A stretch of 60,335 nucleotides of DNA from Candidatus Daviesbacteria bacterium (GCA_016195715.1 JACPZA010000031.1:1-60335), one strand, 5' to 3'; shown: positions 7,469 to 54,546, counted from the stretch's first letter. Notes: generated by a model from the letters alone, not told the origin. Numbers and translations: made by a program.

Positions 7469-8569
7469 ATGGCAATTTTTTCATCTGAGAAAGTCATAGT
7501 TTACTTAAAAAATAAATCTATTGAATTTTATAAAGAAGGGGTCGGCGAGAAAGCTTGGTTGGAGTTTCCAGATAATATAATTTCTGACCAAGAGATTAAG
7601 GATCAATCTTCACTTGAGAAATTAATCTTTGAATTTTTAGAGAAAACTGGTTTAGAAAAACAGCAAGCTTTAATTATTTTATCTGATGAGCTTTCTTTTC
7701 AAAAGATAGTCCCAGCAACAGACAGTGAAAATGAGCAGTTTGAGGTTAAAAAGTTTTTAGAGCAGATTCCATTTGAGGCGCCAACTATTGCCACTTTGTT
7801 AGTTAGATCAGATACGCAGTTAGATATTTTTGCAGCAAATAAAAATCTTTTTTTTGGGATAAAAAATATTTTAGAGAAATATGGCTGGCAAGTAGTTGCG
7901 GTTGTGCCTTCTGCAATTTATGAAAATTTATCTAAAGATAGCTTAAAACCAGAAGAGGTAGTTAGAGCTTTAAATGATAAAAAACTTATAAAAAAGAGCA
8001 ATTTTTTAACTGAAACAAACTCAAGCCAGCTTACTATAAAGACCCCTCAAACAGCTTCTCTTTTAACTATTGTATTGGTATTCATTTTAGCTGGTATTTT
8101 AGGATTTCTAAGCTTAAAATTTAATCTTTTATCCAAGTTGCCACTTTTTAAAAGTAGTCATCAAGGCATCCCTCAAGATAAAGTACAAGAAACCTCTAGC
8201 TCGGGACAAAATAAAAATGCTTCTTCGGAATCAACCCAAAGCAGTAGCTTAAGTGCTAAGCCAAATACTAGTTTTGATAAACAGCAAGCCAAAGTCCAAA
8301 TTTTAAATGGTAGTGGAGTTTTTGGTCAGGCTACTAAGCTCAAAGATAAAATAGCTGAATTGGATTATAAAAATATCCAAACTGGCAATGCTACTAGCTC
8401 TTCTCAGCAGGAAACTACAATAACCTATACCGCTTTAGTTTCTACCCAAATTAGAGACGAATTAAATAATCTTTTAAATTCATTATTTGAAAAAGTAATA
8501 ATAAGTGAGGGAAGTTTAGATAGTTATGATATCTTGATAACCACTGGTCAATCAAAAGCCCCACTTTAA
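7469..8569 (+). CDS. Membrane protein with C-terminal LytR_C domain, pilus locus
   Basis: This 366-residue protein has a cytoplasmic N-terminal half (about 1-190) with weak resemblance to PilM/GspL-type actin-like folds ('EKVIVYLKNKSIEFYKEG', then 'QALIILSDELSFQKIVP'). One membrane helix follows at about 194-214 (LLTIVLVFILAGILGFLSL), then a Ser/Gln-rich linker and a C-terminal domain beginning 'AKVQILNGSGVFGQATKLKDKI' that matches the LytR_C family. Its position after the pilin gene suggests a pilus-alignment or cell-wall linking role. I do not recognise an enzymatic site. Confidence 0.65.
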   Translation: MAIFSSEKVIVYLKNKSIEFYKEGVGEKAWLEFPDNIISDQEIKDQSSLEKLIFEFLEKTGLEKQQALIILSDELSFQKIVPATDSENEQFEVKKFLEQIPFEAPTIATLLVRSDTQLDIFAANKNLFFGIKNILEKYGWQVVAVVPSAIYENLSKDSLKPEEVVRALNDKKLIKKSNFLTETNSSQLTIKTPQTASLLTIVLVFILAGILGFLSLKFNLLSKLPLFKSSHQGIPQDKVQETSSSGQNKNASSESTQSSSLSAKPNTSFDKQQAKVQILNGSGVFGQATKLKDKIAELDYKNIQTGNATSSSQQETTITYTALVSTQIRDELNNLLNSLFEKVIISEGSLDSYDILITTGQSKAPL

Positions 8570-8571
8570 AA

Positions 8572-9831
8572 CTATTTAACTTGTTTTGAAATAGCTTGCC
8601 ACAGTTTATCAGAGCTTCCTTCATATCCTAATGCCCAAATAGCCACTCCAGCTAGATTTTTTTGATTTACATATTCAAGTTTTTTGGCAATTGACTTTTC
8701 ATCTTCATAATAAATTTGTTTAATAGCACCACTTTGGGTGTATGAAAGCCAGGGGGAGGCTGTTTTATCATCAAAATAAAGTTTTAAATCATCTCTATTT
8801 CCTAATAGTTTTGATGTTCTATCTATTGTGGCTAAAGCACCTGTATTTTCTATAGTTGAAGCCTTATAACTATAACTTGTGGTTTGCCACTCATAACCAT
8901 AAAAAGGGATCCCTAAAACCACTTTTTCCAAAGGAACTCTACCAATTAATGAATTTACTGATTTATCAACACTATCTTCTCCTTGGCTTGAATATAAAGG
9001 AGCTATTGGCCCAGATATAGTTGAGTTTGCAGTTTTATAGTCATAAGCCATTAAGATAATTTGATCTATTACATCCCCAATTTTAACCATGTCATAGGCT
9101 TTATCAGATAAAACAGCATTTCCACTGATATCAGCTGAAATTATTAAATTTGAATTATCTTTTTTTAAACTATTTTTTAGAGTTGTAAAAAATTTATTAA
9201 AATATTTAAAAGTAGGATAATTTGAATCAGTTAAATATTCAAAATCTATATTAATGCCATCAAGTTTATAAGTTTTAATTAATTCATTAAGCTGTGTAAT
9301 AAATCTGTTGGTAGAATTTGGATTACTTACTAAATTATCAATATTTTTATTATCAAAATTTTTAATTGAAAGTAAAACTTTTGTCCCACTTTTACTAGCT
9401 TCTTTTTGTAAATCGCTAAATTCAGGAGAGTTAAAATATGTCCATTCAGCAACAGCTGCCCCTTTTTCATCAAATTTAACTAAGCTACCATCACTATTTA
9501 CTGCCAGTCCAAAATAAATTATTTGACTTAAATTTTTAGTATCTACCTTAATTTTTTTTGCTACCATCCATGATGGTAAAAATCCAATGATCTCTTTTTT
9601 AAAGCTATTGTGGGAGATTGATTGAGTTTTTTTAAGAGGAGGGTTTGTTTGGTGTAAAAATGAGTATAAATTATTTTTTTGACTAAAAAATATGGCTACT
9701 AAAACAACAATTAGAAAAAGAAATGAAGTAGCTAAAGCAGAAAGCCAGGAGTTTGGAAGTTGGCTTTGTAATCTGTTTAAAAAGCTTCTTTTAGATGGAC
9801 TAAAGGCGGGCGGTATAACCTGTTTACCCAT
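8572..9831 (-). CDS. Membrane-anchored GH18 family glycosidase
   Basis: Glycoside hydrolase family 18 domain on a signal anchor (419 residues). The N-terminus is cytoplasmic with one helix near residues 35-55; the catalytic barrel starts at 'KKEIIGFLPSWM' (about 89). The catalytic strand reads DGINIDFEY with Glu as the acid, close to the SleL/YaaH type, where the second Asp of the classic DGxDxDxE is Asn. The later 'ILMAYDYK' strand supplies the usual Asp/Tyr. Likely substrate is a cell-wall or exopolysaccharide N-acetylglucosamine bond; this is inferred. A TATAAT box lies six bases before the start, so the transcript should be leaderless. It ends three bases from the convergent upstream gene. 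Confidence 0.85.
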   Translation of the reverse strand: MGKQVIPPAFSPSKRSFLNRLQSQLPNSWLSALATSFLFLIVVLVAIFFSQKNNLYSFLHQTNPPLKKTQSISHNSFKKEIIGFLPSWMVAKKIKVDTKNLSQIIYFGLAVNSDGSLVKFDEKGAAVAEWTYFNSPEFSDLQKEASKSGTKVLLSIKNFDNKNIDNLVSNPNSTNRFITQLNELIKTYKLDGINIDFEYLTDSNYPTFKYFNKFFTTLKNSLKKDNSNLIISADISGNAVLSDKAYDMVKIGDVIDQIILMAYDYKTANSTISGPIAPLYSSQGEDSVDKSVNSLIGRVPLEKVVLGIPFYGYEWQTTSYSYKASTIENTGALATIDRTSKLLGNRDDLKLYFDDKTASPWLSYTQSGAIKQIYYEDEKSIAKKLEYVNQKNLAGVAIWALGYEGSSDKLWQAISKQVK

Positions 9832-9837
9832 GAATCT

Positions 9838-9843
9838 ATTATA
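9838..9843 (-). promoter_or_regulatory. -10 box for the GH18 gene
   Basis: TATAAT on the minus strand, six bases before the ATG at 9831. The -35 region is weak. It lies in the 115-base divergent gap that also holds the promoter of the gene at 9947. Confidence 0.5.
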
Positions 9844-9946
9844 GCTGTACTTAAACTTTCCTACTACAGTATTTCATTCGACATTCTTACTTAATCTTCA
9901 AAAAATTTAAAAGGATTTGGAATATATATACTAAAAAGAGGAGCAA

Positions 9947-10657
9947 ATGATATTTAAGGATCGGGTTGATGCTGGTAAAAAATTGGCTGAAAAACTAATT
10001 AAATATTCAGATCAAAATACAGTTGTTTTAGCGCTACCAAGAGGAGGAGTGCCAGTAGGTTTTGAGGTTGCTAAAAGACTTAAGGCGCCGCTTGATGTCT
10101 TGGTTGTAAGAAAACTTGGAGCACCCTCAAGTCTGGAGTTCGGTATTGGTGCTATAGCCCCAAATAATATTAAAGTTATAGATGAAATTTCTGTTGAAAA
10201 GCTAGGTATTTCTCGGAAAGATATTGAAAAGATTGAGAAAAAACTGCGAAAAGAGTTAGACCGACGGATAAAAAAATATAGAGGTAAAAATTCATTTCCC
10301 GATGTTAAAAACAAAACAGTAGTTCTGGTTGACGATGGAGTAGCTACCGGAGTTAGTGCAAAAGCCGCTATAAAAGCAGTACTTGAACAAAATCCGAAGA
10401 GGTTGATTATTGCTGTGCCTGTTTGTGCTCTAAATGCACTCAAGGGTATAAGTTCAGTTGTTCGTCCAATAAAAGATGAGGTTATATGTCTTTATACTCC
10501 TTATGATTTTTCCGCAGTTGGTCATTTTTATAAAAGCTTTAATCCTGTCTCAGATCAGGAAGTAATTAAATTATTACAAAGTAACAAGGTATCCTTATTA
10601 AAACAATCTCAAAGGAAAATCAAAAGAGGTAAGCAATTAAAAGTTTGGGCAGTTTGA
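9947..10657 (+). CDS. Phosphoribosyltransferase-domain protein
   Basis: Type I phosphoribosyltransferase fold, 236 residues. N-terminal 'VVLALPRGGVPVGFEVAKRL' is typical of stand-alone PRTase-domain proteins of unknown substrate. The PRPP-binding loop is 'TVVLVDDGVATGVSAKAA' (about 124-141), with the paired acidic residues and Thr. The C-terminal 'DFSAVGHFYKSFNPVSDQEV' is also characteristic of this subfamily. It is one of few genes here with a Shine-Dalgarno-like sequence (AGAGGAG, four to five bases before ATG). Substrate and pathway are unknown. Confidence 0.85.
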   Translation: MIFKDRVDAGKKLAEKLIKYSDQNTVVLALPRGGVPVGFEVAKRLKAPLDVLVVRKLGAPSSLEFGIGAIAPNNIKVIDEISVEKLGISRKDIEKIEKKLRKELDRRIKKYRGKNSFPDVKNKTVVLVDDGVATGVSAKAAIKAVLEQNPKRLIIAVPVCALNALKGISSVVRPIKDEVICLYTPYDFSAVGHFYKSFNPVSDQEVIKLLQSNKVSLLKQSQRKIKRGKQLKVWAV

Positions 10658-10672
10658 TATACTTTTTAGTTA

Positions 10673-10701
10673 TTGATTAAATAATAGTTATTTAGTATTC
10701 T
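10673..10701 (+). promoter_or_regulatory. Promoter of the DinB-like gene
   Basis: TTGATT (10673-10678), 17-base spacer, TATTCT (10696-10701); predicted start of transcription is about four bases before the ATG at 10712. Confidence 0.45.
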
Positions 10702-10711
10702 CAAAACGAAA

Positions 10712-11230
10712 ATGAATGCAGTTACACTGTTAAGAGAACAATTAAAATCAGCTCATGAGACTCAAGAAGCGACCATGGCAGATGTAACAGAGCAGTCTGC
10801 TCATTTTGCAGACACTAATAAAGCTCTCCCAGTTGGCGGCGCTTATGCTCATTCAATAATTAGTGAGGATGTAGTAGTTGCAACCATGTTTGCTCATACA
10901 ACTCCACTTTCTACTGATAATTCTCTAACTGGTTTGTCTGAACCAATGCCCTCAATGAGTGATTGGGATAAACATGAAGCTTGGTATAAAACTGTTAAAG
11001 TTGATTTAACAAAATTAAAAGAATTTGCCCAAAAAGTATATCTTGCCACAGATGATTATTTAGCTTCTCTAAAAGATGAAGATTTAGATCAAGAGATTGA
11101 TATGCCAGGAATGGGCAAACACAGCTTAGCTTTTTTTATTACTAATATTGTAATTTTACATATTGCTAATTTAACTGGTGAGATCTCATCAGTAAAAGGT
11201 TTGCAAGGGTTAAAGGGTTATCCTTTTTAA
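10712..11230 (+). CDS. DinB-like four-helix protein
   Basis: A 172-residue protein of the DinB/DfsB type, a four-helix bundle that usually binds a metal through three His. The visible family signs are an N-terminal helix with 'YAHSIISED' (His near 46) and the C-terminal 'VILHIANLTGEISSVKG' followed by 'GLKGYPF', a common DinB ending. The middle contains 'DKHEAWYKTVKVDLTKLKEF'. Function is unknown; members include thiol-dependent transferases. It has its own promoter with a very short leader. Confidence 0.6.
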   Translation: MNAVTLLREQLKSAHETQEATMADVTEQSAHFADTNKALPVGGAYAHSIISEDVVVATMFAHTTPLSTDNSLTGLSEPMPSMSDWDKHEAWYKTVKVDLTKLKEFAQKVYLATDDYLASLKDEDLDQEIDMPGMGKHSLAFFITNIVILHIANLTGEISSVKGLQGLKGYPF

Positions 11231-42276: not shown

Positions 42277-42717
42277 TTAAATTCTTTTTAAAATAATCAC
42301 CAATAAAAAAACTGCCACTACTTGGGTGACAATTCCCCAAGGTAGCTTAGCTTTTCCTTGAATTGAAGACATAAATTTATAAATCCAGGAAAAAGGGGGA
42401 AAGCGCCAGTTCAAAAACCAATAAGGAGCTTCAATAATATCCAGAGCTTCTGAAGCTAAAACACAAGTTACAAAATAGCCAAAATTAACTCTTTGCCCAA
42501 AGATTAGATAAGATAATATAAATCCTAAACAGAGATCAAAAGCCGCCTCTAGGAAAAATTTCAACTTAGTTTTTTTTCTCCAACCCCAACCAAAATCCCA
42601 ATGGGGAACCATATCTAAAACTATGTGGGAAGTTAACGCTAAACTTACACCCAAGACTGGATCAGGAATTGTGGCTGCAATTGCTCCACCAACCAGAGCA
42701 TGGGTTGTAGCGGTCAT
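42277..42717 (-). CDS. Hypothetical integral membrane protein
   Basis: About 146 residues with three or four hydrophobic segments. The start 'MTATTHALVGGAIAATIPDP' resembles small membrane-bound hydrolase-like proteins with 'HIVLDMVPHWDFGWGW', where several conserved His and Asp could bind metal. I choose ATG 42717 because the longer frame (42744) adds a weak N-terminus. Convergent with galU, divergent from lgt. Function unknown. Confidence 0.6.
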   Translation of the reverse strand: MTATTHALVGGAIAATIPDPVLGVSLALTSHIVLDMVPHWDFGWGWRKKTKLKFFLEAAFDLCLGFILSYLIFGQRVNFGYFVTCVLASEALDIIEAPYWFLNWRFPPFSWIYKFMSSIQGKAKLPWGIVTQVVAVFLLVIILKRI

Positions 42718-42736
42718 AATGGCCAGTATATCCCAA

Positions 42737-42766
42737 TTGGTCAAAGTCAGTCAAATTTGGTAATAT
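42737..42766 (+). promoter_or_regulatory. lgt promoter
   Basis: TTGGTC (42737-42742), 18-base spacer, TAATAT (42761-42766) preceded by TGG (extended -10). It supports the lgt start at 42778 rather than the upstream in-frame ATG at 42700. Confidence 0.5.
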
Positions 42767-42777
42767 TGAGCAAGCAA

Positions 42778-43692
42778 ATGTATCCAATTCTGTTTAAAAT
42801 TGGTTCTTTATCTATCTCTTCCTTTGGACTCTTTCTATCTTTAGGACTACTTTTTGGCACTTTTATTATTTGGAGACTTTCTAAAGTTTATGATTTAGAT
42901 CCAGAGAAAACTTTAGATTTAATATTTCTGACTTTTTTTGGAGGGATTATTGGGGGAAGGCTTTATTATGTTTTATTCCATTTATCCGAATTTAAAAATT
43001 TAACTAGAATTTTTTTGATTAACCGTTACCCAGGCTTGTCTTTTTGGGGAGGCTTTTTTATTGGCTTTTTAATTTTAAATTATTTAACAAAGAGACAAAA
43101 ATTAAATTTTTGGTTAGTGGCAGATTTAGCTGCTGTAGGTTTTTTTGCAGGTTTAAGCTTAGGAAGCTTAGGTTGTCTTTTGGGTAGCTGTCAATACGGA
43201 GTAACATCAAATTTACCCTTTGCAGTTACTCAAATTGGGGTAATTGGCGGGAGGTTACCAGTTCAATTTGGTTATTTTATATTATTTTTACTGGCTTTAA
43301 TTTTTCTTTGGCGAATGTGTTTAAGATTTCATTTTACAGGCAAAGTTGCATCTGTTGCATTGATTCTGCTTGGCTTAATCAAGTTTCCACTAGATTTTTA
43401 CCGTGGCGACGAACCTAAAGTTTTAGGAAATTTTAACGAGGGACATTTCTTTGCTGTCTTCTCAGCTCTTTTAGGAATTGTTATCTATTACAGGCAAAGC
43501 AAAAAGTCCTTTATTACCGACTTAAAGTTTTTAGCCTATTTTTTTATAAATTCAAAAGTTAGGAATACTACACTATCAAAGTTTAATAAGACTTGGTATA
43601 ATCTTAAAGTTAATTTTAGGATTTCTTATCTAAATTTCAAAAAACAACTATTTAAAAAATTAAATGTTAAATCTAACCCGAACCAATTTTAA
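42778..43692 (+). CDS. lgt: Prolipoprotein diacylglyceryl transferase
   Basis: Transfers diacylglycerol to the Cys of prolipoproteins in the cytoplasmic membrane. About 304 residues, seven helices. 'MYPILFKIGSLSISSFGL' is the standard opening; 'FFGGIIGGRLYYVLFH' and 'PGLSFWGGFFIGFLI' are the conserved Gly-rich helices, then 'LGSLGCLLGSCQYG' replaces the usual 'GRIGNFINGE' signature, as in other Patescibacteria. 'RLPVQFGYFILFL' is the last motif. The C-terminus overlaps the next gene by 29 bases. Confidence 0.85.
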   Translation: MYPILFKIGSLSISSFGLFLSLGLLFGTFIIWRLSKVYDLDPEKTLDLIFLTFFGGIIGGRLYYVLFHLSEFKNLTRIFLINRYPGLSFWGGFFIGFLILNYLTKRQKLNFWLVADLAAVGFFAGLSLGSLGCLLGSCQYGVTSNLPFAVTQIGVIGGRLPVQFGYFILFLLALIFLWRMCLRFHFTGKVASVALILLGLIKFPLDFYRGDEPKVLGNFNEGHFFAVFSALLGIVIYYRQSKKSFITDLKFLAYFFINSKVRNTTLSKFNKTWYNLKVNFRISYLNFKKQLFKKLNVKSNPNQF

Positions 43693-44023
43693 CTCTATAA
43701 AAAATAAGCTTCTTAGACAAAAGCAAAAAGTTGAAGGAGAACTTAGAGAACTAGATAAAAAAGATCCAGTCATGTTAGACGGGTTGGCTGAAAGCAGTGA
43801 ACCTGGAACTGAGTCGTGGATGGCTGATGTGCACAATCAAGTGGTAGCAGTTAAGCAAAATTTACATGCGCTTCTTTCTAAAATTAAAAAATCTTTAGTT
43901 AATTTAAAAACTGGCAAATATGGAAAGTGTGAAGTTTGTGGTAAGATTATTGAAAGAGCTAGACTTGAAGCTATGCCAACTGCAACTGATTGTTTATCAT
44001 GTTCTAAAAAAGCTTTCAAATGA
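43664..44023 (+). CDS. DksA/TraR-type zinc finger protein
   Basis: A 119-residue protein with a coiled N-terminal helix pair (about 8-75) and a C4 zinc finger 'GKCEVCGKIIERARLEAMPT' ... 'DCLSC' (about 86-113). This is the DksA/TraR architecture that binds RNA polymerase through its secondary channel. Acidic tip residues between the helices ('DKKDPVMLDGLAESSEP') are at the expected place. Overlaps the lgt end. Confidence 0.88.
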   Translation: MLNLTRTNFNSIKNKLLRQKQKVEGELRELDKKDPVMLDGLAESSEPGTESWMADVHNQVVAVKQNLHALLSKIKKSLVNLKTGKYGKCEVCGKIIERARLEAMPTATDCLSCSKKAFK

Positions 44024-44116: not shown

Positions 44117-45808
44117 ATGATGAGTAGTTCCTCTAAAAAATATTCTGACAAATATGTAATTGCAATTGACAAAGAGATCACTTATCAACCTCAAAAAATT
44201 GTTCTAAATGGAAAAAACTTAACGATTCAAGAAGTTTTAGCTGTTTCTAGAAATAAATTTAACTTCGAACTCACTACAGATTCTAAGGTGATTAATAGAA
44301 TAGAAGAATGCTTTCAAAAGATGATGGAGGATGTCAAAAATGGTGTGCCAGTTTATGGGGCTAATACAGGTTATGGTGCCCAAGCTTCTAGAGTATTAAC
44401 TCAGGGTTCACCAACAGAGCGGGTTAATTTGGCTAAATTGATCTCAGAAGGGATTGCGCATGTTGATGTAACAGTTGGGCCAACTTTTTCAGCTGATGTA
44501 ATAAGGGCAGCGATATTGATCAGGATTAATATGCTAATGCAGGGTGTAAGTGGGATTAAAATAGATGATTTAAAAATTTATCAGCAACTTTTAAATAATC
44601 AAATAACCCCAGTCGTCAATCAATATGGAGGAATTGGAGCCTCTGGAGACTTAGCTCACAATGGTCGGGTTTTAAGTGCTGCTCGAGGTTTAAAAGGGGT
44701 TCAGGTTTGGAATAAAACAGGCAAAATTGTCGAGGCCAGTGAAGCTTTAAAAAAAGCTCATATTCCACTGCTAAATTTAAACCCTAAAGCAGGATTAGGA
44801 CTTGTGAATGGAGATAATTTTTCATCAGCACTGGCACTTCTTTTAACTGTTGATACTTTGGAATTATTGCTGATTAGTACAGTTGTAGGTGCAATGATGA
44901 TTGAGGTTTTGCATGGAACAGACAGATCTTTTCATCCCGTATTAAGCGAGGTGCGTCCACATCCAGGACAAAGAGAAGTTGCTAGTCTGTATAGATATTT
45001 ACTCAAGGGAAGCAAATTGGCTTACCAGGAGATGTCCGGACATCAGTTAAGACCAGATGGCATTAAGGTTCAGGATGCTTATAGTTTAAGAGGAATTTCT
45101 CAATATCAAGGTGTTAATTTTGAAAAGATTAAATCACTTCTGGAAATAATTGAAATTAATATTAACTCAGTTTCTGATAATCCTCTTTGGGTACCTCCCG
45201 AATACACCGTAGACGATGAAAAACCCTGGCAATGGGTGAGTGGGGGAAATTTTTTAGCAATGCATATGGTAGAAGTTATGGATTCCCTTAGAAAAATTAT
45301 GACCCAAATTGTAAAGTTAAATGATCGTCATCTAGCTAGACTTGTTAATCCAAACGATAATAATGGTTTACCTCCTAATTTATCAGATAAGTCAGCTATA
45401 ACAGGTTGTGCGTTTAAGGGTGTACAAATTCAATCAGGTATGTTTGAGGTTTATTCATCGCTTTTGTCAATTCCAGTAAGTACTTTTTTTGGAGTTCATG
45501 AAGAGGGAAATCAAGATATAACTTCGCATGCTCTAACTTCTGGAATTTTTGGTTTGGAAAATTTAAGAATTGCTAGGTACTCAATAGCTCAAAATTTATT
45601 AGCAGTTGCTCAAGCTGTAGATTTTCGAGGAGGAATAACTAAGCTGTCCCCAAAAACTCAAGCAGTTTATAAGCTAATTCGAGATAGTGTAGATTACTTA
45701 GGAGAGGAAAAACCCTTGAATAATGATATTGAAGCTATCTATCAAGCTCTTATTAATGGTGATTTAATTAATTTAATTAGAGAGAAAGTTTTTAGTGAGT
45801 ACAGCTAA
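44117..45808 (+). CDS. MIO-dependent aromatic amino acid ammonia-lyase family enzyme
   Basis: HAL/PAL/TAL family member, 563 residues. The MIO cofactor forms from Ala-Ser-Gly in 'GGIGASGDLAHNGR' (about 174-187). 'VYGANTGYGAQASR' carries the catalytic Tyr and 'HGTDRSFHPVLSEVRPHPGQ' follows. The selectivity pair aligned with HAL Ser-His, PAL Phe-Leu and TAL His-Leu reads Leu-Ile here ('VNLAKLISEG'), so histidine and tyrosine are unlikely and a non-polar aromatic substrate or a mutase is possible. Two ATG codons are adjacent (44117, 44120). It overlaps the ligase gene by 14 bases; four genes form an apparent biosynthetic operon. Confidence 0.88.
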   Translation: MMSSSSKKYSDKYVIAIDKEITYQPQKIVLNGKNLTIQEVLAVSRNKFNFELTTDSKVINRIEECFQKMMEDVKNGVPVYGANTGYGAQASRVLTQGSPTERVNLAKLISEGIAHVDVTVGPTFSADVIRAAILIRINMLMQGVSGIKIDDLKIYQQLLNNQITPVVNQYGGIGASGDLAHNGRVLSAARGLKGVQVWNKTGKIVEASEALKKAHIPLLNLNPKAGLGLVNGDNFSSALALLLTVDTLELLLISTVVGAMMIEVLHGTDRSFHPVLSEVRPHPGQREVASLYRYLLKGSKLAYQEMSGHQLRPDGIKVQDAYSLRGISQYQGVNFEKIKSLLEIIEININSVSDNPLWVPPEYTVDDEKPWQWVSGGNFLAMHMVEVMDSLRKIMTQIVKLNDRHLARLVNPNDNNGLPPNLSDKSAITGCAFKGVQIQSGMFEVYSSLLSIPVSTFFGVHEEGNQDITSHALTSGIFGLENLRIARYSIAQNLLAVAQAVDFRGGITKLSPKTQAVYKLIRDSVDYLGEEKPLNNDIEAIYQALINGDLINLIREKVFSEYS

Positions 45809-47276
45809 TCATCTAAAAAAGTCAAATCAATTACTGTTTAAAAATTGGCTATTCAACCAATCCTTTTATGATACTAGCTTATTAAAAAATGAAGCTTTGC
45901 TTATAAAGATTGCTAAACAAAAAGCTTTAAAGTTATTTCATAGTGCAGCGCTTAGAGTTCCGGCATATAAAGATTTTTTAAAAAAAAAATCTATTAAACC
46001 TTCTTTAATTAAAACCTTTGCTGATTTTGAAAAAATCCCTGTAACTTCTAAAGAAAATTATATTGAGACTTATTCTATGAAGGAGCGGTGTTGGGATGGT
46101 CAACTTGAAGGTATGCACATGATCTCAACAAGTTCTGGTACAACTGGTAAACCACTTCTTTGGCCTAGGGACTTAATTAGCGAAATTGAGGGAGCATTTG
46201 CTCATGAACTAATTTTGAAAAATATTTTTTCTGTGGATAAAAAAAAGACTTTATTTTTAAATGGTTTTGCCATGGGGAATTGGATTGCTGGTACTTTTAC
46301 AACAGCTTGTGTTAATTTGGTTTCTTGGAAAGGTTATAAGCTAACTTTGATGACTCCAGGCTATGTCTTAAAAGCCATCGTAGATATTTTGCAAGAAGAG
46401 TTCATAAATGACTTTGATCAAATTATCCTAACTGGGCATACACCTTTTTTAAAAGAAATAGTTGAAGAAATTGTTAAACAAAAGATTAATTTAACTAAAA
46501 TTGATTTTCGGTTGCTTGGAACTGGACAAGCAATTAGTGAAAATTGGCGCGATTATTTAATTAATCTTTTAAAAGGCGATGAAACTTCAGTTATTAATCT
46601 CTATGGATCTGCTGATGCAGCTTTGATGGGATTTGAAACTCCCTTATCAATCAAAATTAGAAAATTTATCTTTGCAAATCAAAACATAAATAAAAAACTT
46701 TTTCAAAAAAATAGATTTCCATCAATTTATAATTTTGATCCAAGACTAACTTTTTTTGAGGCAATTGATGGAGAACTTTGTATTACCAAAAATTCTGGTT
46801 GTCCATTAATTAAATATAATATTCATGATGAAGGAGGAGTGTTAAAAAATCAGGAATTGAGTAGTTTACTGAGTGAAGATGTAGAATTTCAACTCCCATT
46901 TGTTTATTTATTTGGTAGAGAAAAGTTCATGGTAAAATTTTTTGGAGCCAATCTTTATTCAGAACATATCCAATTTGCTCTCAATCACCAAAAGCTTCAA
47001 CCATTTATCACTGGAAGGTATTTAGCAGAAGTGGGGACTGATGAATCTCATAATGATAAATTAATTTTTAAGATTGAATTAGCCAGTGGAGTAAACCAAG
47101 AGGAGAATTTAGTTAAATTAATACAAGAAACTTTTATGAATGAAGTTAAAAAAATAAATAGTGAGTATGATTATGTACTAAATCAAATGGGAGTGAAAGC
47201 AATACCAGAGATAAATTTATTTGAACACGGACATCCAGATTATTTTCCTTTAGATAAAATCAAAAAAAATGGTTAA
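45795..47276 (+). CDS. Adenylate-forming ligase (PaaK/CapK-like)
   Basis: A 493-residue acyl-activating enzyme of the phenylacetate-CoA ligase type. The ATP loop 'STSSGTTGKPLLWPRD' lies at about 112-127; the A5-like motif is 'NLYGSADAALMGFET' (about 270), with 'LFGREKFMVKFFGANLY' in the C-terminal hinge. It would activate a carboxylic acid, plausibly the product of the ammonia-lyase encoded just upstream, as an acyl-AMP or CoA ester. GTG start. It overlaps both neighbours (14 and 8 bases). Confidence 0.82.
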   Translation: MSTANHLKKSNQLLFKNWLFNQSFYDTSLLKNEALLIKIAKQKALKLFHSAALRVPAYKDFLKKKSIKPSLIKTFADFEKIPVTSKENYIETYSMKERCWDGQLEGMHMISTSSGTTGKPLLWPRDLISEIEGAFAHELILKNIFSVDKKKTLFLNGFAMGNWIAGTFTTACVNLVSWKGYKLTLMTPGYVLKAIVDILQEEFINDFDQIILTGHTPFLKEIVEEIVKQKINLTKIDFRLLGTGQAISENWRDYLINLLKGDETSVINLYGSADAALMGFETPLSIKIRKFIFANQNINKKLFQKNRFPSIYNFDPRLTFFEAIDGELCITKNSGCPLIKYNIHDEGGVLKNQELSSLLSEDVEFQLPFVYLFGREKFMVKFFGANLYSEHIQFALNHQKLQPFITGRYLAEVGTDESHNDKLIFKIELASGVNQEENLVKLIQETFMNEVKKINSEYDYVLNQMGVKAIPEINLFEHGHPDYFPLDKIKKNG

Positions 47277-48303
47277 AACAAAAAAAATTAAGCTTTCCAA
47301 TCGAGCAAAGCAGGAACTTCTAATTGAATTATGGGAGGATGCTGCGTTTAATAGAAATTCTTATCTGGAGCTGGAAAAGATGATTATAAACTATAAAAAG
47401 TCTAGACAAGAAAAATGTGATTTTGAATTAACTGATTTAGAAATTCTTTTTAATCTTTCTACATCACGAAATAGAAATTTAATAAATTATGAACAACAAA
47501 GAAACCTTTCAAGTAAGATAGTTGGTTTTTTTGGCTTAAGCGTTGGAAGTCACGCAGCCATTACTTGGATTATAGAATCAAGATCTAGAGTAATAAAAAT
47601 TTCGGATCCAGATAAAATTTCTCCAACGAACTTAAATCGTTTGAGGTTAGGTTGGGAAGATATTGGGAAAGATAAAGTTGATGTGGTTAAACATCAATTA
47701 CTTAAAATAAACCCTTATCTAAATATAGTTCTAACAAAAAAAACTGATTTTAATACCATAAACAATATTTTTAATAATTCTCCAAAACTATCTGCTGTTA
47801 TTGATGCGATCGACGATATGGAAGGAAAAATTATTTTAAGAAAACTAGCAAAAGAGAATAAAATTCCTTTAATCTCGGCTGCAGATGTTGGAGATAATAT
47901 CGTATTAGATATAGAGAGATATGACCAAGATTTAAATCTTGAGCCTTTCTTAGGAAGGATTAGTAAGCAAGAAATTCAGTCTTTTCCCAAAATGTCAGAT
48001 CTTGAAAAAAAGAAAATGATTATTAAATTAGTGGGTTTTGAAGAAAACAGCGAACAAATGCTTGATTCTTTACTTGCGTTAGGGAAAGATCTTTCGACTT
48101 GGCCTCAACTAGGTGCGACTGCTACTATCGCAGGCGGAATAATCACAACGACTTTAAAAAAGATTTTTCTGGGAGAAAAAATAAAATCAGGCAGGTATTA
48201 TTTCTCCTTAGATTCGATACTCGTTCAGGATTTTAATTCAAAAACTAACCAAAAAGTGCGCAATGAAAAAATTAAGCAAATTAAGACTAAGTTTAAAATA
48301 TAG
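47269..48303 (+). CDS. ThiF/E1-like adenylyltransferase-fold protein
   Basis: A 344-residue E1-like protein. Nucleotide motif 'VGFFGLSVGSHAAITW' (about 84-99) and 'DPDKISPTNLNRLRLG' (about 117-132) give the family, followed by 'GKDKVDVVKHQLLKINPYL'. The zinc CxxC pairs and catalytic Cys of MoeB/ThiF enzymes are absent, so it likely adenylates or rearranges a small molecule and not a ubiquitin-like tail. The layout with the next gene resembles the fused ThiF-nitroreductase protein Rv1355c (MoeY) of mycobacteria, here as two genes. Confidence 0.75.
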   Translation: MVKTKKIKLSNRAKQELLIELWEDAAFNRNSYLELEKMIINYKKSRQEKCDFELTDLEILFNLSTSRNRNLINYEQQRNLSSKIVGFFGLSVGSHAAITWIIESRSRVIKISDPDKISPTNLNRLRLGWEDIGKDKVDVVKHQLLKINPYLNIVLTKKTDFNTINNIFNNSPKLSAVIDAIDDMEGKIILRKLAKENKIPLISAADVGDNIVLDIERYDQDLNLEPFLGRISKQEIQSFPKMSDLEKKKMIIKLVGFEENSEQMLDSLLALGKDLSTWPQLGATATIAGGIITTTLKKIFLGEKIKSGRYYFSLDSILVQDFNSKTNQKVRNEKIKQIKTKFKI

Positions 48304-48312
48304 AATGTACTT

Positions 48313-49404
48313 ATGAATTTTAATTTAACTGATAAAGAGATAGAGACACTTTTTAGGGCAGGAGAGCAATCTCCTTCTGGAGGAAATGTTCAACCTTGGA
48401 ACGTATCTCTTAAAAAAAACCTAATAGAGGTTACTTTGGATCCGATTCGCTCTAAAATTAGTGATTTTTTAGATGTTCACTGCTTTGCTTCTATCTTTGC
48501 TCTAGGGTGTTTTACTGAAAATATCTTGATTGCTGCAAGAAGCTTAGGTTTAAAATTTAATTATGAATTAAAAACTTCAGAAAAAGTAGAGTATTTTAAA
48601 GTTCAGATAACGTTTTTCGGGAGAGAGAAAGTTTATACAACAGAAGATCTTAGTATCTACGTTCCAAAGCGAGTAACAAATCGTCAAATATCAGATGGCA
48701 CAGTAATCGATCAAAAAGATATTGAATTGCTCATTAAACAATGCTTAGCTTTTTCAAAAGGACAGTTTAATTTAAATACATGCTCATCAAGTACTTCAAA
48801 AAAAAATATTGCTAGAATTTTAGGTAAGGCTGATGGAATAAGAATGACAAAACAAGAAACCTACGAACAAATGATGAGAGAATTTCGTTGGTCTGAATCA
48901 GAGGCAAAGCTATCAAAAGATGGTCTAGATCTAAAAACCCTAGAGCTACCTGGCAATGTAGAAAAACTTTTTTTTCTAATTCGAGACTATCCATTTATAA
49001 GAGAAAAATTTCCTTTAAAAATTTTTGAAGATTTTGCAAAACCTTTACTTTTAAATAGTTCACATCTTTGTTGTTTATCTACAAATTCTTCATTGAGTCC
49101 TCAAGTACTATTTGAGGGAGGGAGGATTTTAGAAAGAATTTGGTTAATTTCTACTAAACTTAATCTAGCTTTTCAACCCTGGACACCTCTTATCTATTTT
49201 TTAATCAGAACTGATTATTTTAAGGGAGAAGGATTTTCTAAGGAAGAGATTAAGTCAGTAAGAAATTTAGGAAAATTATTACGTAAAGAATTTTCTTTGA
49301 AAAATAAAGCTAATTTAGTTTTCTTCTTTAGGCTTTCTAAAGCAAAACCTGCCAGTTATAGGTCTATTAAAAGATCTTGGAGTGAATTTGTAACTATAAA
49401 TTAG
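48313..49404 (+). CDS. Nitroreductase-like (Acg-type) protein
   Basis: A 363-residue protein with the flavin-binding nitroreductase opening 'FRAGEQSPSGGNVQPWNVSL' (about 14-33) and 'YVPKRVTNRQISDGT', where the 'K/R.RxTNR' pattern is typical of Acg-like members. The fold is duplicated and the second half is diverged. Nitroreductase-type oxidoreductases in biosynthetic clusters oxidise azolines or reduce double bonds. It follows the ThiF-like gene by nine bases. Confidence 0.72.
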   Translation: MNFNLTDKEIETLFRAGEQSPSGGNVQPWNVSLKKNLIEVTLDPIRSKISDFLDVHCFASIFALGCFTENILIAARSLGLKFNYELKTSEKVEYFKVQITFFGREKVYTTEDLSIYVPKRVTNRQISDGTVIDQKDIELLIKQCLAFSKGQFNLNTCSSSTSKKNIARILGKADGIRMTKQETYEQMMREFRWSESEAKLSKDGLDLKTLELPGNVEKLFFLIRDYPFIREKFPLKIFEDFAKPLLLNSSHLCCLSTNSSLSPQVLFEGGRILERIWLISTKLNLAFQPWTPLIYFLIRTDYFKGEGFSKEEIKSVRNLGKLLRKEFSLKNKANLVFFFRLSKAKPASYRSIKRSWSEFVTIN

Positions 49405-49443
49405 AAAATGTTTTAGTTGCAGCTTATGTCGTTTGGGATTTAT

Positions 49444-49453: not shown

Positions 49454-51646
49454 ATGCTATCTTTTGATCTTTTATTTGTGATTATTGCCGTTATTGGTAA
49501 TTTCATTTTAGGTTTATTTACTCTTCGCAAAAACCCTAAAAGTGCTACTAATTTATTGTTTTTTCTTTTTACTATCTCTATCACTACTTATATAATTTTT
49601 AATTTCTTAGTTACTTATCAAAAAACTGACCAGGCAGCCTTTTTTTGGGTAAAAGCAGTGATGAGTAATGCTGTTTTTATTAATTTGTTGTTTTTTTTAC
49701 TTACTTCAACTTTCCCAAGTCCTAAATTTTCATTAAATCGAAAAATTTTCTGGGCTTCGACTATTTTTTCGCTTTTTTTGGCTCCCGCAGCACAGCTCAA
49801 TTTGATTTTTATATCCGCTAAGGCTTCAGGAGGTGGGGGAGTTCCAGGAATAGCTATGCCATTTTTTCTTTTGCATACTGCACTTTATTTAGGAGGCGGT
49901 TTTATCACTCTTGTAAAAACTTTTAGAAAATCTAATGGATTTGAAAAAGAACAAGTTAAACTTTTTTTATTTGGCACAATTTTAATGTTTATTTCTATTC
50001 TGTTTGGAAATTTACTTCTGATTTTAATTTTTAATAATAGTTCATTTATTGGGCTATTACCAATTTACACTTTAATTTTTATAAGCACTATAAGTTATGC
50101 AATCGTGAAGAATAAATTTTTAGATATTAACTTGCTAGTTGCAAGATCTGTAGTTTATACACTTTTGGTTTTCATAATCGCATTATTCTATACCGGCTCG
50201 ATATTTAGCGTAACTAATTTATTTTTTAATGGTCAGATAACTCGTTTGCAAGCCATAATTTATTCAGTATTTGCTCTTTTTGTCGCCCTAACTTATCCAT
50301 ATTTAAAACAAGCTATTGAAAAGTTAACTGATAAAGTTTTGTTTAAAAATAATTATGACTCAAATGAGCTTTTATCTTCTCTGACAAAAATAATGGCATC
50401 AACCTTGCAGCTTGAGGATTTAACTAGACTAACTTTGCATAAATTACTTGAGACAGTGCACATTAGCAAAGGAGCTTTTTTAATTTTGGAAGAACAGAAA
50501 TTTTACCCTCCAATAGCTGAAGGTTTTGATAATACTAATTTTAACAGCAGTTTAATGGAGTGGCTTTGTAGTTTTAAAAAAATCTTAATTTTTGATGAGG
50601 AAGAAAATCCTAAGATTAAAATAATTTTAAGACAATTGAATTTTTCAGTGGTGTTACCACTTTTTGTGGGCCAAACTATTCATGGACTTTTGGTTTTAGG
50701 CGATAAAAAGTCTGGTGAAATTTATTCAAGTCAAGATATTAAAATGTTGGAAATTTTTGGACCAGAAGTTTCGGTTGCAGTCCAAAATTCTAAAGCTTAT
50801 GAAGAGATTAAGCGCTTTAATATTACTTTAAAAGAAGAAATTGATAAAGCCACAAAAGATTTACAAGTTGCAAACAAAAGGTTGGAAGAGTTAGATAAAA
50901 TAAAAGATGACTTTGTCTCGGTTGCTTCCCATGAACTGCGGACTCCTATGACCGCGGTTAGGTCTTATGCTTGGATGGCGTTAAATAGACCAGATGTACC
51001 TTTATCTGAAAAACTTAAAAAATATTTGCAGCGAACTTTAATTTCCACAGAACGATTAATAAATTTAGTCAATGATATGTTGAATATCTCAAGAATTGAA
51101 TCAGGTAAAATTGAAATTAATCCTCAAGCATTTGATGTTGAAACTCTAGTTGATGATGTTTTACTAGAAGTTGGTCCAAAAGCCAAAGAGAAAAATCTGC
51201 ATTTAGTCTCTTATAAAACTCAAATTCCCAAAGTTTTTGCTGATCCAGACAAGGTTCATCAAGTATTGCTAAATTTAGTAGGCAATGCTCTTAAATTTAC
51301 CCCCGAAAATGGAGGGGTAAGTATTTCATTTTTTACGGATGGACAAATGGTAGATATTTCAATAAAAGATACTGGGGTTGGAATAAGTTCAGATGATCAA
51401 AGACGCCTCTTCCAAAAATTTGGCAGGCTTGATTATTCTTATGTTGCCTCAGCTACATCTGGGGGGACAGGTTTGGGACTATTTATTTGCAAAAGTTTAG
51501 TCAGCTTAATGAAAGGAAAGATTTGGGCAGAGTCTGATGGAATAAATATGGGTTCAACTTTTTCTTTTTCACTACCAGCAGCAACCCCAGAGGTTTTAAA
51601 ACAAGCGGGAAAATATACTACTAAAGTAGACGGTGAAGAGGGTTAA
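49454..51646 (+). CDS. Sensor histidine kinase with 7TM-type N-terminus and GAF domain
   Basis: About 730 residues. The N-terminus has eight or so hydrophobic helices (about 1-285), as in HisKA_7TM sensors, then a GAF-like region (about 295-450). HisKA has its phospho-acceptor in 'VASHELRTPMTAVRSYAW'; HATPase_c contains 'NLVGNALKFTPENGG', 'DTGVGISSDDQRR' and 'GGTGLGLFICKSLV'. The response regulator at 51710 is its probable partner. The ATG at 49454 is preferred over a TTG at 49433. Confidence 0.9.
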   Translation: MLSFDLLFVIIAVIGNFILGLFTLRKNPKSATNLLFFLFTISITTYIIFNFLVTYQKTDQAAFFWVKAVMSNAVFINLLFFLLTSTFPSPKFSLNRKIFWASTIFSLFLAPAAQLNLIFISAKASGGGGVPGIAMPFFLLHTALYLGGGFITLVKTFRKSNGFEKEQVKLFLFGTILMFISILFGNLLLILIFNNSSFIGLLPIYTLIFISTISYAIVKNKFLDINLLVARSVVYTLLVFIIALFYTGSIFSVTNLFFNGQITRLQAIIYSVFALFVALTYPYLKQAIEKLTDKVLFKNNYDSNELLSSLTKIMASTLQLEDLTRLTLHKLLETVHISKGAFLILEEQKFYPPIAEGFDNTNFNSSLMEWLCSFKKILIFDEEENPKIKIILRQLNFSVVLPLFVGQTIHGLLVLGDKKSGEIYSSQDIKMLEIFGPEVSVAVQNSKAYEEIKRFNITLKEEIDKATKDLQVANKRLEELDKIKDDFVSVASHELRTPMTAVRSYAWMALNRPDVPLSEKLKKYLQRTLISTERLINLVNDMLNISRIESGKIEINPQAFDVETLVDDVLLEVGPKAKEKNLHLVSYKTQIPKVFADPDKVHQVLLNLVGNALKFTPENGGVSISFFTDGQMVDISIKDTGVGISSDDQRRLFQKFGRLDYSYVASATSGGTGLGLFICKSLVSLMKGKIWAESDGINMGSTFSFSLPAATPEVLKQAGKYTTKVDGEEG

Positions 51647-51709: not shown

Positions 51710-52099
51710 GTGGATCCAAAAAATAAAAAGATTTTAATAGTTGAGGATGATCAATTTTTAAGGGAGTTTTATCAAGAACTTTTATCAACTGAAGGATTTG
51801 TGGTAGATGTAGCAGCAGATGGGGAAATAGCCAATACTAAAATTCACCAAGGTGGTTTTGATTTAATAATGTTAGATATCATGCTTCCCAAAAAAGATGG
51901 TTTGCAAATCTTGCGCGACTATAAAACTAACCCACCAGCAGTTGAAAACGGACCAATTGTAGTTTTAACCAATTTAGGCCAAGATACAATTATTAAACAA
52001 GCCTTTGATTTAGGAGCTTCAGGATATATTGTTAAATCTGCCTTAAATCCAGATCAAGTTTTAGATGAGATTCATAACTACTTAAAAGTCAACGCTTAA
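51710..52099 (+). CDS. Single-domain response regulator receiver
   Basis: A 129-residue CheY-like receiver. Asp in 'LIMLDIMLPKKDG' (about 60), acidic pair in 'IVEDDQFL', Thr in 'VVLTNLGQ' and Lys in 'YIVKSA'. No output domain. GTG start. It lies 63 bases after the 7TM histidine kinase. Confidence 0.9.
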   Translation: MDPKNKKILIVEDDQFLREFYQELLSTEGFVVDVAADGEIANTKIHQGGFDLIMLDIMLPKKDGLQILRDYKTNPPAVENGPIVVLTNLGQDTIIKQAFDLGASGYIVKSALNPDQVLDEIHNYLKVNA

Positions 52100-52108
52100 T
52101 TTTTTTCA

Positions 52109-52873
52109 GTGGCTGCACTAACTATTATTTACCAGGATCCAAATCTCTTAGTTATTGATAAACCAGCTGGTTTGACAGTTTCTCCAACTGAAACAAGTTC
52201 TGATGAAACTTTAGCAGATATCATTAAAAAAGATTTTAACATTGATTTAGAGCGAGCAGGCATAGTTCACAGGTTAGATAAAGATACATCAGGGGTAATT
52301 TTAGTTGCTAAAACTACTGAAGCTCTAGAAAATCTCCAACACCAATTTCAAACTAGAGAAGTTAAAAAAGAATATCTAACTTTAGTTCACGGATTTTTAC
52401 AAAGTGCTGGACAAATTATTGCTCCAATTGGCAGAAACCCAAAAAATAGAGAAAAGTTTACAGTTTTAGTTGGTGGTAAAGAAGCTCAAACTACTTATCA
52501 AACGCTTAAACACTTAGAAATGCCAGAGGATGTTTTGGATGAGCTTTTTGCTGATTTCTCTAAAATCCAGATGCGCAAATTAGCTAACTTAAACTATTCA
52601 AAATTTAGTTTAGTTAGAGTTTTGCCTTTAACGGGTAGAACTCACCAAATTAGAGTTCACTTAAAGCATATTGGTTTTGCGATTGTAGGGGATGAAAAAT
52701 ATGGTGGCAGAAAAATTGTCAGATTAGATCACAGATTTTGTCAAAGGCAATTTTTACATGCTAGTAAAATTTCCTTTAAACATCCAAAAACAAATGAGCA
52801 GTTAGTTTTTGAAAGCCCAATACCAGATGATTTAAAAAATGCCTTAAGTCTTCTTAAAAAGGTCACTATTTAG
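52109..52873 (+). CDS. RluA family pseudouridine synthase
   Basis: RNA pseudouridine synthase, 254 residues. The catalytic Asp lies in 'GIVHRLDKDTSGVILVAKT' (about 52-70); 'LPLTGRTHQIRVHLKHIG' and 'GDEKYGG' are the other family motifs. No S4 domain. GTG start, nine bases after the receiver gene. The target (23S rRNA or tRNA) is not predictable. Confidence 0.92.
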   Translation: MAALTIIYQDPNLLVIDKPAGLTVSPTETSSDETLADIIKKDFNIDLERAGIVHRLDKDTSGVILVAKTTEALENLQHQFQTREVKKEYLTLVHGFLQSAGQIIAPIGRNPKNREKFTVLVGGKEAQTTYQTLKHLEMPEDVLDELFADFSKIQMRKLANLNYSKFSLVRVLPLTGRTHQIRVHLKHIGFAIVGDEKYGGRKIVRLDHRFCQRQFLHASKISFKHPKTNEQLVFESPIPDDLKNALSLLKKVTI

Positions 52874-52890
52874 TATGATGTAATTAAGCT

Positions 52891-54546
52891 ATGAATACTA
52901 TTTTTTTACAGTTGGCTGCTGTGCTTTTTTTGTCTTCAGTATTTGGTTATTTAATTAAATTTTTAAAGTTACCCTTAATTGTGGCTTATTTACTAGCAGG
53001 AGTAACTATCTCCGGGGCAACAACTATTTTTAGCAGCTATAATCTCATACCTTCAAACTGGCAAGTTTTAACTTTTTTACCTGGAATTGGTTTAGCTTTT
53101 GTCCTGTTTTTAATTGGAATGGAGCTTGATTTAAGAGAGATTAAATCCCTGGGTAAACCGATTTTAATTACCTCTTTAGGCCAGATTACGATCACTTTTT
53201 TAGCTGGTTTTGCTATCTCAGGTTGGTTAGGCTTTAGCCAAGTAGAAAGTATCTTTTTGGGTTTAGGTTTATCTTTTTCTTCAACCATTGTGATAGTTAA
53301 GCTGCTGTTAGAAAAAAAAGATTTGGCCTCTTTATATGGCAAACTATCTTTAGGGATTACATTAGTAGAAGATTTGGTAGCCATCACTGCTTTAATGGTT
53401 ATTACAGTTGGCAGCTCTGTTTTTAACCTAGGTTTGCAACAAAGTTTTCCCATTCTGATTTTAATTGTTAAAGCAGCAGGTTTATTTTTATTAACATTTG
53501 TTTTATCGAAGTACGTTTTGGAAAATATCTTTAAAGCAGTAGCTAAAAATGTTGAGTTGCTATTTTTAACAGCTATTGCTTGGTGTTTTATTTTTACCTC
53601 TTTAGCTCTGCTTTTAGGTTTTTCTATTATTATAGGTGCTTTTTTAGCAGGAGTAGCTTTAGCATCTTCTCCATATCATTTTCAAATTCAAAGCAAAGTT
53701 AAGCCGTTAAGGGACTTCTTCTTAACCTTATTTTTTGTTTATCTAGGTTCTCAAGTTAAGTTAGGGGATTTATTATCAGCTTGGGGAGCTATTAGCGCAT
53801 TAACTCTTTATGCAATTGTAGTTAAGCCTTTAATTTTTTTGTTGCTTTTAGGAATCTTTGGATTTAGAAAACACACCCTTTTTCATACAGCTCTAAACCT
53901 CTCTCAAATCTCAGAATTTTCTTTAGTCATTATGTTATTTGGACTTAGCAATGGTTCTGTTAGACCGCTAGCTTTATCAGTAATTGCTATGGTTGGAGTT
54001 TTGTCTATTACAGTTTCTTCAACCATGATTACTTATTCCAGACAAATTTACCAAATCTTCTCTCCCTTCTTAAATTTCTTTGAACATAAATCAATGGTCC
54101 ATGTTCTAGAGAATAAGAAAAAAGAAGAAAAAAAGGACCATGTAGTAGTTGTTGGAGGAGAAGGAATAGGTGGGCCGGTGATTAGATTTTTAAAAAGAGA
54201 AGGAATTCCAGAGATGGTGGTGGATTTTAATCCTCATGTCATTGAAAGATTGCAAAAAAATGGAATTGAAGCAATTTATGGGGATATTGCTGACCCAGAT
54301 ATTTTAGATTTTTTGCAACTAGAAAATTCTAAAGTTATTATTTCAGCAGTTGATCATGATGAAGACAATGAACAGTTGCTAAGGGAGTTAAAAAGAAGAA
54401 AAATTAAAGCCTTAATGATCATTAGAGCTTCAGATCCAGACCAAAGTGAGTTGTTTAAGGAGTTGGGAGCAGATTATGTAGTTTTACCAGAGAAAGTCTC
54501 TGGTGAGTTTCTAGTTAATAAATTAAAAACTAGCTGGCTTCATTAA
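52891..54546 (+). CDS. Kef-type cation:proton antiporter with TrkA-N domain
   Basis: A 551-residue CPA2 family protein: about twelve helices (1-400), with 'FLPGIGLAFVLFLIGMELDL' and 'GLGLSFSSTIVIVKLLLEKK' as family motifs, then an RCK/TrkA-N domain from 'VVVVGGEGIGGPVIRFLKRE' (about 412) that binds NAD(H) or nucleotides and gates transport. Probably K+ or Na+/H+ exchange. A TATGAT box lies 11 bases before the ATG. Confidence 0.9.
   Translation: MNTIFLQLAAVLFLSSVFGYLIKFLKLPLIVAYLLAGVTISGATTIFSSYNLIPSNWQVLTFLPGIGLAFVLFLIGMELDLREIKSLGKPILITSLGQITITFLAGFAISGWLGFSQVESIFLGLGLSFSSTIVIVKLLLEKKDLASLYGKLSLGITLVEDLVAITALMVITVGSSVFNLGLQQSFPILILIVKAAGLFLLTFVLSKYVLENIFKAVAKNVELLFLTAIAWCFIFTSLALLLGFSIIIGAFLAGVALASSPYHFQIQSKVKPLRDFFLTLFFVYLGSQVKLGDLLSAWGAISALTLYAIVVKPLIFLLLLGIFGFRKHTLFHTALNLSQISEFSLVIMLFGLSNGSVRPLALSVIAMVGVLSITVSSTMITYSRQIYQIFSPFLNFFEHKSMVHVLENKKKEEKKDHVVVVGGEGIGGPVIRFLKREGIPEMVVDFNPHVIERLQKNGIEAIYGDIADPDILDFLQLENSKVIISAVDHDEDNEQLLRELKRRKIKALMIIRASDPDQSELFKELGADYVVLPEKVSGEFLVNKLKTSWLH

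Follow-up and report, generated by a model that had tools for sequence, protein, structure and literature searches.

In the LuxM/LuxN and CqsA/CqsS systems, synthase genes adjoin the gene of a multi-pass membrane receptor kinase, and synthase and sensor diversify together. We analysed a gene cluster of similar arrangement in a 60,335-nucleotide stretch of DNA from Candidatus Daviesbacteria bacterium (GCA_016195715.1 JACPZA010000031.1:1-60335; this whole stretch is called the window below), where four enzyme genes precede those of a histidine kinase with a seven-transmembrane (7TM) sensor and of a response regulator. Two of these enzymes resemble those of oxazolone formation. Mycobacterial TrzS cyclises N-acyl-tryptophan with ATP and then desaturates it with O2, yielding tryptazolone (PMC12856293), and TyzB and TyzC cyclise and desaturate N-acyl-tyrosine in a like manner (PMC10404671). 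Clusters for N-acyl dehydrotyrosines also carry ThiF and nitroreductase genes (PMC12479983). In the available portions of the TrzS and Tyz papers, oxazolones are likened to cell-cell signals with no receptor named (PMC12856293, PMC10404671), and the former calls their physiological role unresolved (PMC12856293).

On balance, and with some reserve, we believe that the cluster is a mobile module which would make an amino-acid-derived small molecule and bring along the receptor domain for it, the product, its secretion and sensing and the output all being predicted. What the sequences establish is the structure of the operon, the family assignments, the linkage across the phylum, the joint occurrence of sensor and ligase, and the grafting of a travelling sensor onto a resident kinase. 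It is the combination of TrzS-type chemistry with a sensor travelling together with the enzymes that leads to reading the cluster as a signal and its receptor. Its genes are:

44117..45808, + strand: 4-methylideneimidazole-5-one (MIO)-type ammonia-lyase or aminomutase, 563 amino acids (PF00221, 380 bits, cut-off 27)
45795..47276, + strand: PaaK-like AMP-forming ligase, 493 amino acids (weak NCBIfam PaaK match)
47269..48303, + strand: ThiF/E1-like adenylating cyclase, 344 amino acids (PF00899, 68 bits, above its cut-off), corresponding to the N-terminal half of TrzS
48313..49404, + strand: nitroreductase-superfamily flavin-dependent oxidase/desaturase, 363 amino acids (PF00881, 25.6 bits, cut-off 23.5), corresponding to the C-terminal half of TrzS
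49454..51646, + strand: histidine kinase, 7TM sensor, GAF, HisKA and HATPase (Pfam)
51710..52099, + strand: single-domain (CheY-like) response regulator, resident (PF00072)

The original prediction placed the first four genes in one operon for a small molecule made without nonribosomal peptide synthetase or polyketide synthase modules, in a reduced genome. The four reading frames are indeed tightly packed (MIO and ligase overlap by 14 bp, ligase and ThiF by 8 bp, and 9 bp separate ThiF from the oxidase) and catalytically plausible, the neighbourhood recurs in relatives, and the host genome (G000) measures 1.15 Mb at 99.5% completeness. One operon for a small molecule made in this way is supported. 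The kinase begins 49 bp after the oxidase if counted from the ATG at 49454, which was chosen by alignment with the kinases of loci L002 and L003; a TTG at 49433 would add seven codons.

A profile search with the ligase gave matches in 27 of 374 genomes of the class and in 54 of 380 genomes of the phylum Patescibacteria (about one in seven). The neighbourhoods of 78 ligase loci, referred to as cassettes, were labelled with profiles built from the first locus set, same-strand runs being considered, some of which are cut by contig ends. A ThiF gene stands in the run with the ligase in 63 of the 78, and absence of the neighbourhood from relatives, which had been named as fatal to the proposal, is thus not what is found. 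The kinase is present in 67 runs, the oxidase in 43, a dehydrogenase in 22, the response regulator in 18, MIO in 16 and an alpha/beta hydrolase in seven; all four enzyme families of the window, whose co-occurrence had been proposed as a check, are together in 11. Chance cannot account for associations of this frequency. Neighbouring cassette genes mostly overlap or lie no more than 15 bp apart.

The ThiF protein and the oxidase correspond to the two halves of Rv1355c (TrzS), because each matches one half of the model NF005901 (Rv1355c): the former aligns with model positions 86-354 (E 4e-52, 177 bits) and the latter with positions 372-719 (E 1.5e-52, 179 bits). This model outscores every other family for both proteins, the next ThiF family reaching 57 bits; its whole-protein cut-off of 476 bits is not reached, the gene being split and its halves scored separately. 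Fusions of the ThiF and oxidase genes occur in relatives (L042, L046, L081), and other cassettes show a dehydrogenase-ligase (L107) or an oxidase-hydrolase fusion (L083). In an alignment with the Rhodococcus Rv1355c protein, the ThiF ATP-site pattern is kept and Asp182 takes the position of the conserved ThiF Asp; Asp182, Arg192 and a Gln stand at plausible positions for TrzS Asp217 and the oxidase residues Arg540 and Gln651, with the M. smegmatis numbering matched approximately only. The originally predicted adenylation/cyclisation and redox steps find support in the TrzS match in a corrected form: judged from sequence, the ThiF protein is most likely a carboxylate-activating cyclase and the "nitroreductase" a flavin-dependent desaturase.

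The locus thus shares with TrzA-TrzS (Rv1356c-Rv1355c; mycobacteria, tryptazolone) a ThiF-like cyclase and a flavin oxidase, here as two genes, but the N-acyltransferase of that pair has no counterpart here, where a PaaK-like ligase and an enzyme for deamination are encoded instead, together with a dedicated membrane kinase sensor (PMC12856293). Similarly, TyzA-TyzC-TyzB of M. tuberculosis and OxzAB of Pseudoalteromonas rubra unite a ThiF cyclase and an FDO desaturase, separate or fused, in one operon, but they use an acyl-CoA N-acyltransferase, and the accessible text describes no linked histidine kinase (PMC10404671). The stieleriacine and thalassotalic acid clusters also have ThiF near a nitroreductase, and some of them a methyltransferase, as does cassette L034; unlike them, the present locus has a ligase for NAS, a front end of the MIO or dehydrogenase kind, and a kinase (PMC12479983).

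The ligase had been predicted to activate an acid, which agrees with its adenylate-forming family; we would add that it probably replaces the N-acyltransferase of the known oxazolone clusters, the amide being made from an acyl adenylate. The adenylate-forming motifs SSG(S/T)TG and FGR are conserved, and a PDB profile match to BT_0428/PaaK was obtained (E 1e-9). The NCBIfam PaaK model gave E 3e-11 and 43 bits, short of its curated cut-off of 646, and Pfam gave no match. Structure models of the ligase and of the sensor were made for three sequences each, with a predicted local distance difference test (pLDDT) score of only about 59; in a Foldseek search with the ligase model (pLDDT 59.5, low confidence), PaaK types came top (E 9e-10), followed by McbA-type amide bond synthetases. 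No N-acyltransferase is present in the operon, and the FeeM type (PF21926) is absent from 17 ligase-bearing genomes including G000, other acyltransferase types not having been searched. A lack of fatty-acyl or CoA supply in the cell had been considered as an argument and was abandoned, since seven of eight genomes contain PF08541, which may represent HMG-CoA synthase, and a FabF-like gene is present in G000. The latter (G000:C27:42906-43694) is one clear ketoacyl-synthase, and nine relatives tested gave short partial matches or none.

The signalling pair had been noted to follow the cluster directly. The adjacency stands, but the 7TM sensor belongs to the module itself, as indicated by its co-occurrence with the ligase and by a graft. 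The window kinase is a chimera, in which an imported 7TM sensor and GAF domain sit on a resident catalytic half:

49454..50860, + strand: travelling part of the kinase, codons 1 to ~475 (7TM ~49478-50128, GAF ~50405-50785)
50860..50900, + strand: graft point, just before HisKA (from 50903)
50900..51646, + strand: resident catalytic half, HisKA and HATPase

In the sensor tree, the window kinase falls into a clade of eight (support 0.993), which are exactly the loci with the MIO type of the window; seven of these eight members come from other families, and the ligases of the eight loci likewise form one clade (support 98). Compared in blocks of 40 residues, the sensor/GAF part is 15-68% identical to cassette kinases, and unalignable or at most about 40% identical to resident ones. 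The catalytic half belongs to a clade of 19 kinases, all 19 from the family of the window (support 0.999), and is 64-71% identical to the kinases that occupy the same slot in ligase-less family members, with blocks mostly at 55-88% from codon ~481; at this codon, identity to ligase-less resident kinases leaps from 28-41% to 80-88%. The closest relatives of the response regulator (about 73% identical) are found in the same slot of family members. The MIO enzyme, the ligase, the ThiF protein and the 7TM-GAF part accordingly behave like a single travelling unit, joined to the local kinase half at ~50,860-50,900; the window oxidase, 22-28% identical to other cassette oxidases, need not be part of it.

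The sensor follows the ligase across the class as well. Nearly all ligase-adjacent kinases have a multi-pass membrane N-terminus, joined straight to HisKA or via GAF, and PF16927 was found in the window kinase and in two relatives scanned. A sensor profile made from the first 300 residues of the kinase gave a single match in each of 25 of the 26 class genomes with the ligase, versus matches in 5 of 47 without it (Fisher p 1.4e-13). These single matches adjoin the ligase, save that contig ends lie between the two in G290. Among the ligase-less genomes with the sensor, L130 represents a cassette truncated where its contig stops, with ThiF, oxidase, kinase and regulator present, L132 has a weakly ThiF-like protein by the kinase, L131 a methyltransferase, and L133 is unexplained. 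In L134, a GNAT protein of 222 amino acids (7923-8591) lies directly before a 7TM kinase of the same type (8656-10887); it matches PF12261 (E 2.5e-4) and FeeM (E 0.022), both under cut-off, and might be a further signal synthase serving receptors of this kind. In a comparison of 59 loci, the divergence of the ligase correlates with that of the sensor (r 0.42; partial 0.36 given the kinase), whereas the partial correlation of ligase and kinase, the sensor being allowed for, is 0.03. Such behaviour, with the sensor moving along with the enzymes and the kinase half staying, is expected of a sensor that recognises the product or another feature peculiar to the pathway. In view of the co-occurrence and the graft, a generic neighbour kinase was rejected. 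The GPCR-like matches which Foldseek returned for the sensor model (E 4e-3 or worse) were taken as generic seven-helix similarity.

The first step of the pathway is suggested by the MIO protein and its substitutes. In the window, this protein has the Ala175-Ser176-Gly177 triad, Tyr80, Tyr322 and Arg325, invariant across eight cassette homologues of its clade, and its closest relatives are 62-66% identical, the 66% one coming from a Candidatus Roizmanbacteria genome; together with the neighbours at class level, they indicate Patescibacteria of the Roizmanbacteria/Microgenomatia kind. It missed widely all curated NCBIfam cut-offs for phenylalanine, tyrosine and histidine ammonia-lyases (PAL, TAL, HAL) and aminomutases, PAL being the best (318 vs 519 bits). 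The selectivity pair is unlike the F-L, H-L or S-H of PAL, TAL and HAL, the selectivity region carries a 7-residue insertion with invariant His115 and Asp117 alongside, and an NGD-N-F motif stands where NGT is expected. An assignment to HAL, PAL or TAL by motifs was rejected, as no cut-off is reached and the selectivity pair is variable. Outside the class, most MIO proteins look closest to FlxA tyrosine ammonia-lyase (560-599 bits in two scanned, cut-off 700), and that of L114 passes the tyrosine aminomutase and histidine lyase cut-offs alike. The dehydrogenases are closest to the ScyB tryptophan dehydrogenase (257-293 bits, cut-off 600), with L093 closer to glutamate dehydrogenase. Three front ends, the window-type MIO, the FlxA-TAL-like MIO and the ScyB-like dehydrogenase, therefore occupy one slot before the ligase. 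One or other kind, MIO or dehydrogenase, is present in half of the 78 loci and both are never together (p ~0.002 under independence, relatedness ignored); front-end type tracks the ligase tree, a quick tree, with 14 label changes against a shuffled mean of 33.9. With at least two MIO kinds and a dehydrogenase found in this position, the simplest function common to all would be to deaminate an aromatic amino acid and so supply the ligase with an acid, although the dehydrogenase could instead run toward the amino acid.

One plausible course of events would start with deamination of an aromatic-type amino acid by the MIO enzyme to an unsaturated acid, which the ligase would adenylate and couple to another amino acid at its amino group. 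The ThiF protein would adenylate the remaining carboxylate, the amide closing on it to form an oxazolone, and the flavin oxidase would desaturate this ring. The 7TM domain of the adjoining kinase might then recognise the product, probably within the membrane, and the kinase would signal to the resident single-domain response regulator.

Several points speak against a signal-and-receptor module of this kind. The oxidase is missing from 5 of the 16 MIO cassettes and ThiF from 15 of the 78 loci, and therefore the chemistry varies; the core cassette holds no exporter. The ligase might simply form CoA thioesters, PaaK-type enzymes outranking the amide synthetases in Foldseek, albeit with a low-confidence model, and we infer both the involvement of another amino acid and its N-acylation by this enzyme. 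What the kinase senses might be a precursor or some cue unconnected with the pathway, and the 59 loci are related, so that the correlations are not independent observations. Finally, the O2 need of the TrzS/TyzC oxidase counts against this mechanism, because an anaerobic life is assumed for many Patescibacteria.

If the module nevertheless works as proposed, a wider picture can be put forward tentatively: cell-to-cell signalling across Patescibacteria, in which cassettes for diverse oxazolone-like signals would travel with the matching 7TM sensor, be grafted on the resident kinase-regulator pair, and allow lineages to swap specificity like a pherotype. As in LuxM/LuxN and CqsA/CqsS, the synthase genes are linked to a membrane-sensor kinase (67 of 78 loci; a linkage alone, known from genes), and synthase and sensor diversify together (the shared eight-member clade; 0.36 vs 0.03). 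Unlike in those systems, the enzymes are unrelated, the sensor is grafted on a resident kinase with a single-domain regulator, and signalling is predicted only. Pairs of a synthase and a membrane-kinase receptor are therefore already known, and what is new here lies in the enzymes, in the chemistry that they probably perform and in the grafting. A survey of quorum sensing in the candidate phyla radiation (CPR) and DPANN sought homologues of 74 known families; like the genes listed there, ours are predicted communication genes from the same radiation, but no ligase-ThiF-7TM kinase module appears in its abstract and first results section (PMC7567580), and we found no description of such a module in the open-licence literature. 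The genetic tie of TrzS-like enzymes to a specific sensor domain provides a testable ligand-receptor hypothesis, which bears on communication of the ultra-small, host-dependent Patescibacteria and on the role of oxazolones, and the sensor graft is natural evidence for receptor specificity following the synthase.

Alternatively, the product could be a specialised metabolite, such as an antibiotic, a host-directed compound or a pigment, with the kinase switching on its production in response to another cue and not to the product. Biosynthetic genes beside a two-component system are a common regulated layout, and Patescibacteria live on other cells; similar N-acyl tyrosine compounds are antimicrobial (PMC12856293). 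We consider this explanation unlikely, as a generic cue needs neither a sensor that travels with the enzymes minus the kinase half nor co-divergence of sensor and ligase. It would be improbable, in our opinion, that the ThiF protein forms another bond (a hydantoin-like ring, a peptide or protein conjugate, or sulfur transfer) and that the product belongs to another class. The nearest solved structures are indeed t6A dehydratases and MccB, but the score with the TrzS model is threefold that with the next family (177 vs 57 bits), and the partner oxidase of TrzS adjoins the ThiF gene or is fused to it.

An internal metabolic circuit, in which the kinase would sense the product or a precursor in the cell or membrane so as to keep amino-acid scavenging in balance, and which would play no part between cells, would be in line with a core cassette devoid of an exporter and with tryptazolones being higher inside cells than in the supernatant (PMC12856293). 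This appears quite improbable to us, since varied sensors and front ends swapped at one slot resemble an exchange of signalling specificity more than fixed metabolism. Although each family has housekeeping members, a chance neighbourhood of four unrelated enzymes (of amino-acid catabolism, phenylacetate-type activation, cofactor synthesis and nitro reduction) is hardly credible and was rejected on account of linkage conserved over the phylum, overlapping genes, gene fusions and mutually exclusive front ends.

A separate matter is the slot in which the signal-and-receptor module is found. In the family of the window, it is delimited by Lgt-DksA on one side and by RluA-KefB on the other, the order within and after it being kinase-regulator-RluA-KefB; most genomes examined carry the resident kinase-regulator pair there. 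The flanking genes in the window are:

42700-43692: Lgt, left slot edge with the DksA/TraR-type protein (synteny)
43664..44023, + strand: DksA/TraR-type zinc-finger protein, left slot edge (Pfam; synteny)
52109..52873, + strand: RluA-like pseudouridine synthase, right slot edge (synteny; named from sequence, without family search)
52891-54546: KefB-like, after the RluA-like gene (synteny; named from sequence, without family search)

Resident kinases without a ligase are usually short (~450-500 amino acids); the one that was scanned has a single membrane helix and a GAF domain. Exchange at the slot has happened more than once, because four loci of the same family (L039, L054, L130, L132) combine resident kinase halves with different sensors and different enzyme sets. 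Family genomes devoid of the cassette often hold at the slot a gene for a divergent Sua5/YrdC-domain protein (PF01300), located directly before the resident kinase in L141:4038-4883, L142:6413-7288, L143:3194-3958 and L156:1962-2837. An Rfam scan of the window found a single tRNA and nothing else.

Further observations concern single cassettes. Large NB-ARC/TPR (STAND-type) proteins are encoded immediately 5' of two of them (L034:11177-13393, L047:10583-15015), and helix-turn-helix proteins with a weak match to the toxin-like PBECR2 nuclease adjoin two others (L044:6382-8190, L056:8220-9029). The ligase of L056:5164-6659 (G111) is present as two overlapping reading frames of 354 and 151 amino acids, which may reflect a frameshift, decay or an assembly error. 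In Nonomuraea gerenzanensis, an actinomycete, a ligase 34% identical to that of the window (L135:8983-10359) is preceded by an overlapping frame with a response-regulator match, at a position where the record has no annotation. On a plasmid of Gemmatirosa kalamazoonensis (L136:7580-10320), a related ligase adjoins a cassette-type flavin oxidase; as this locus lies outside Patescibacteria, the pairing of ligase and oxidase is wider than the phylum. In six loci (L037, L038, L048, L050, L051, L053), the cassette is located among type IV pilus genes (PilB, PilC and pilin-like proteins), and one may speculate that the output there lies in pilus control, attachment or DNA uptake.

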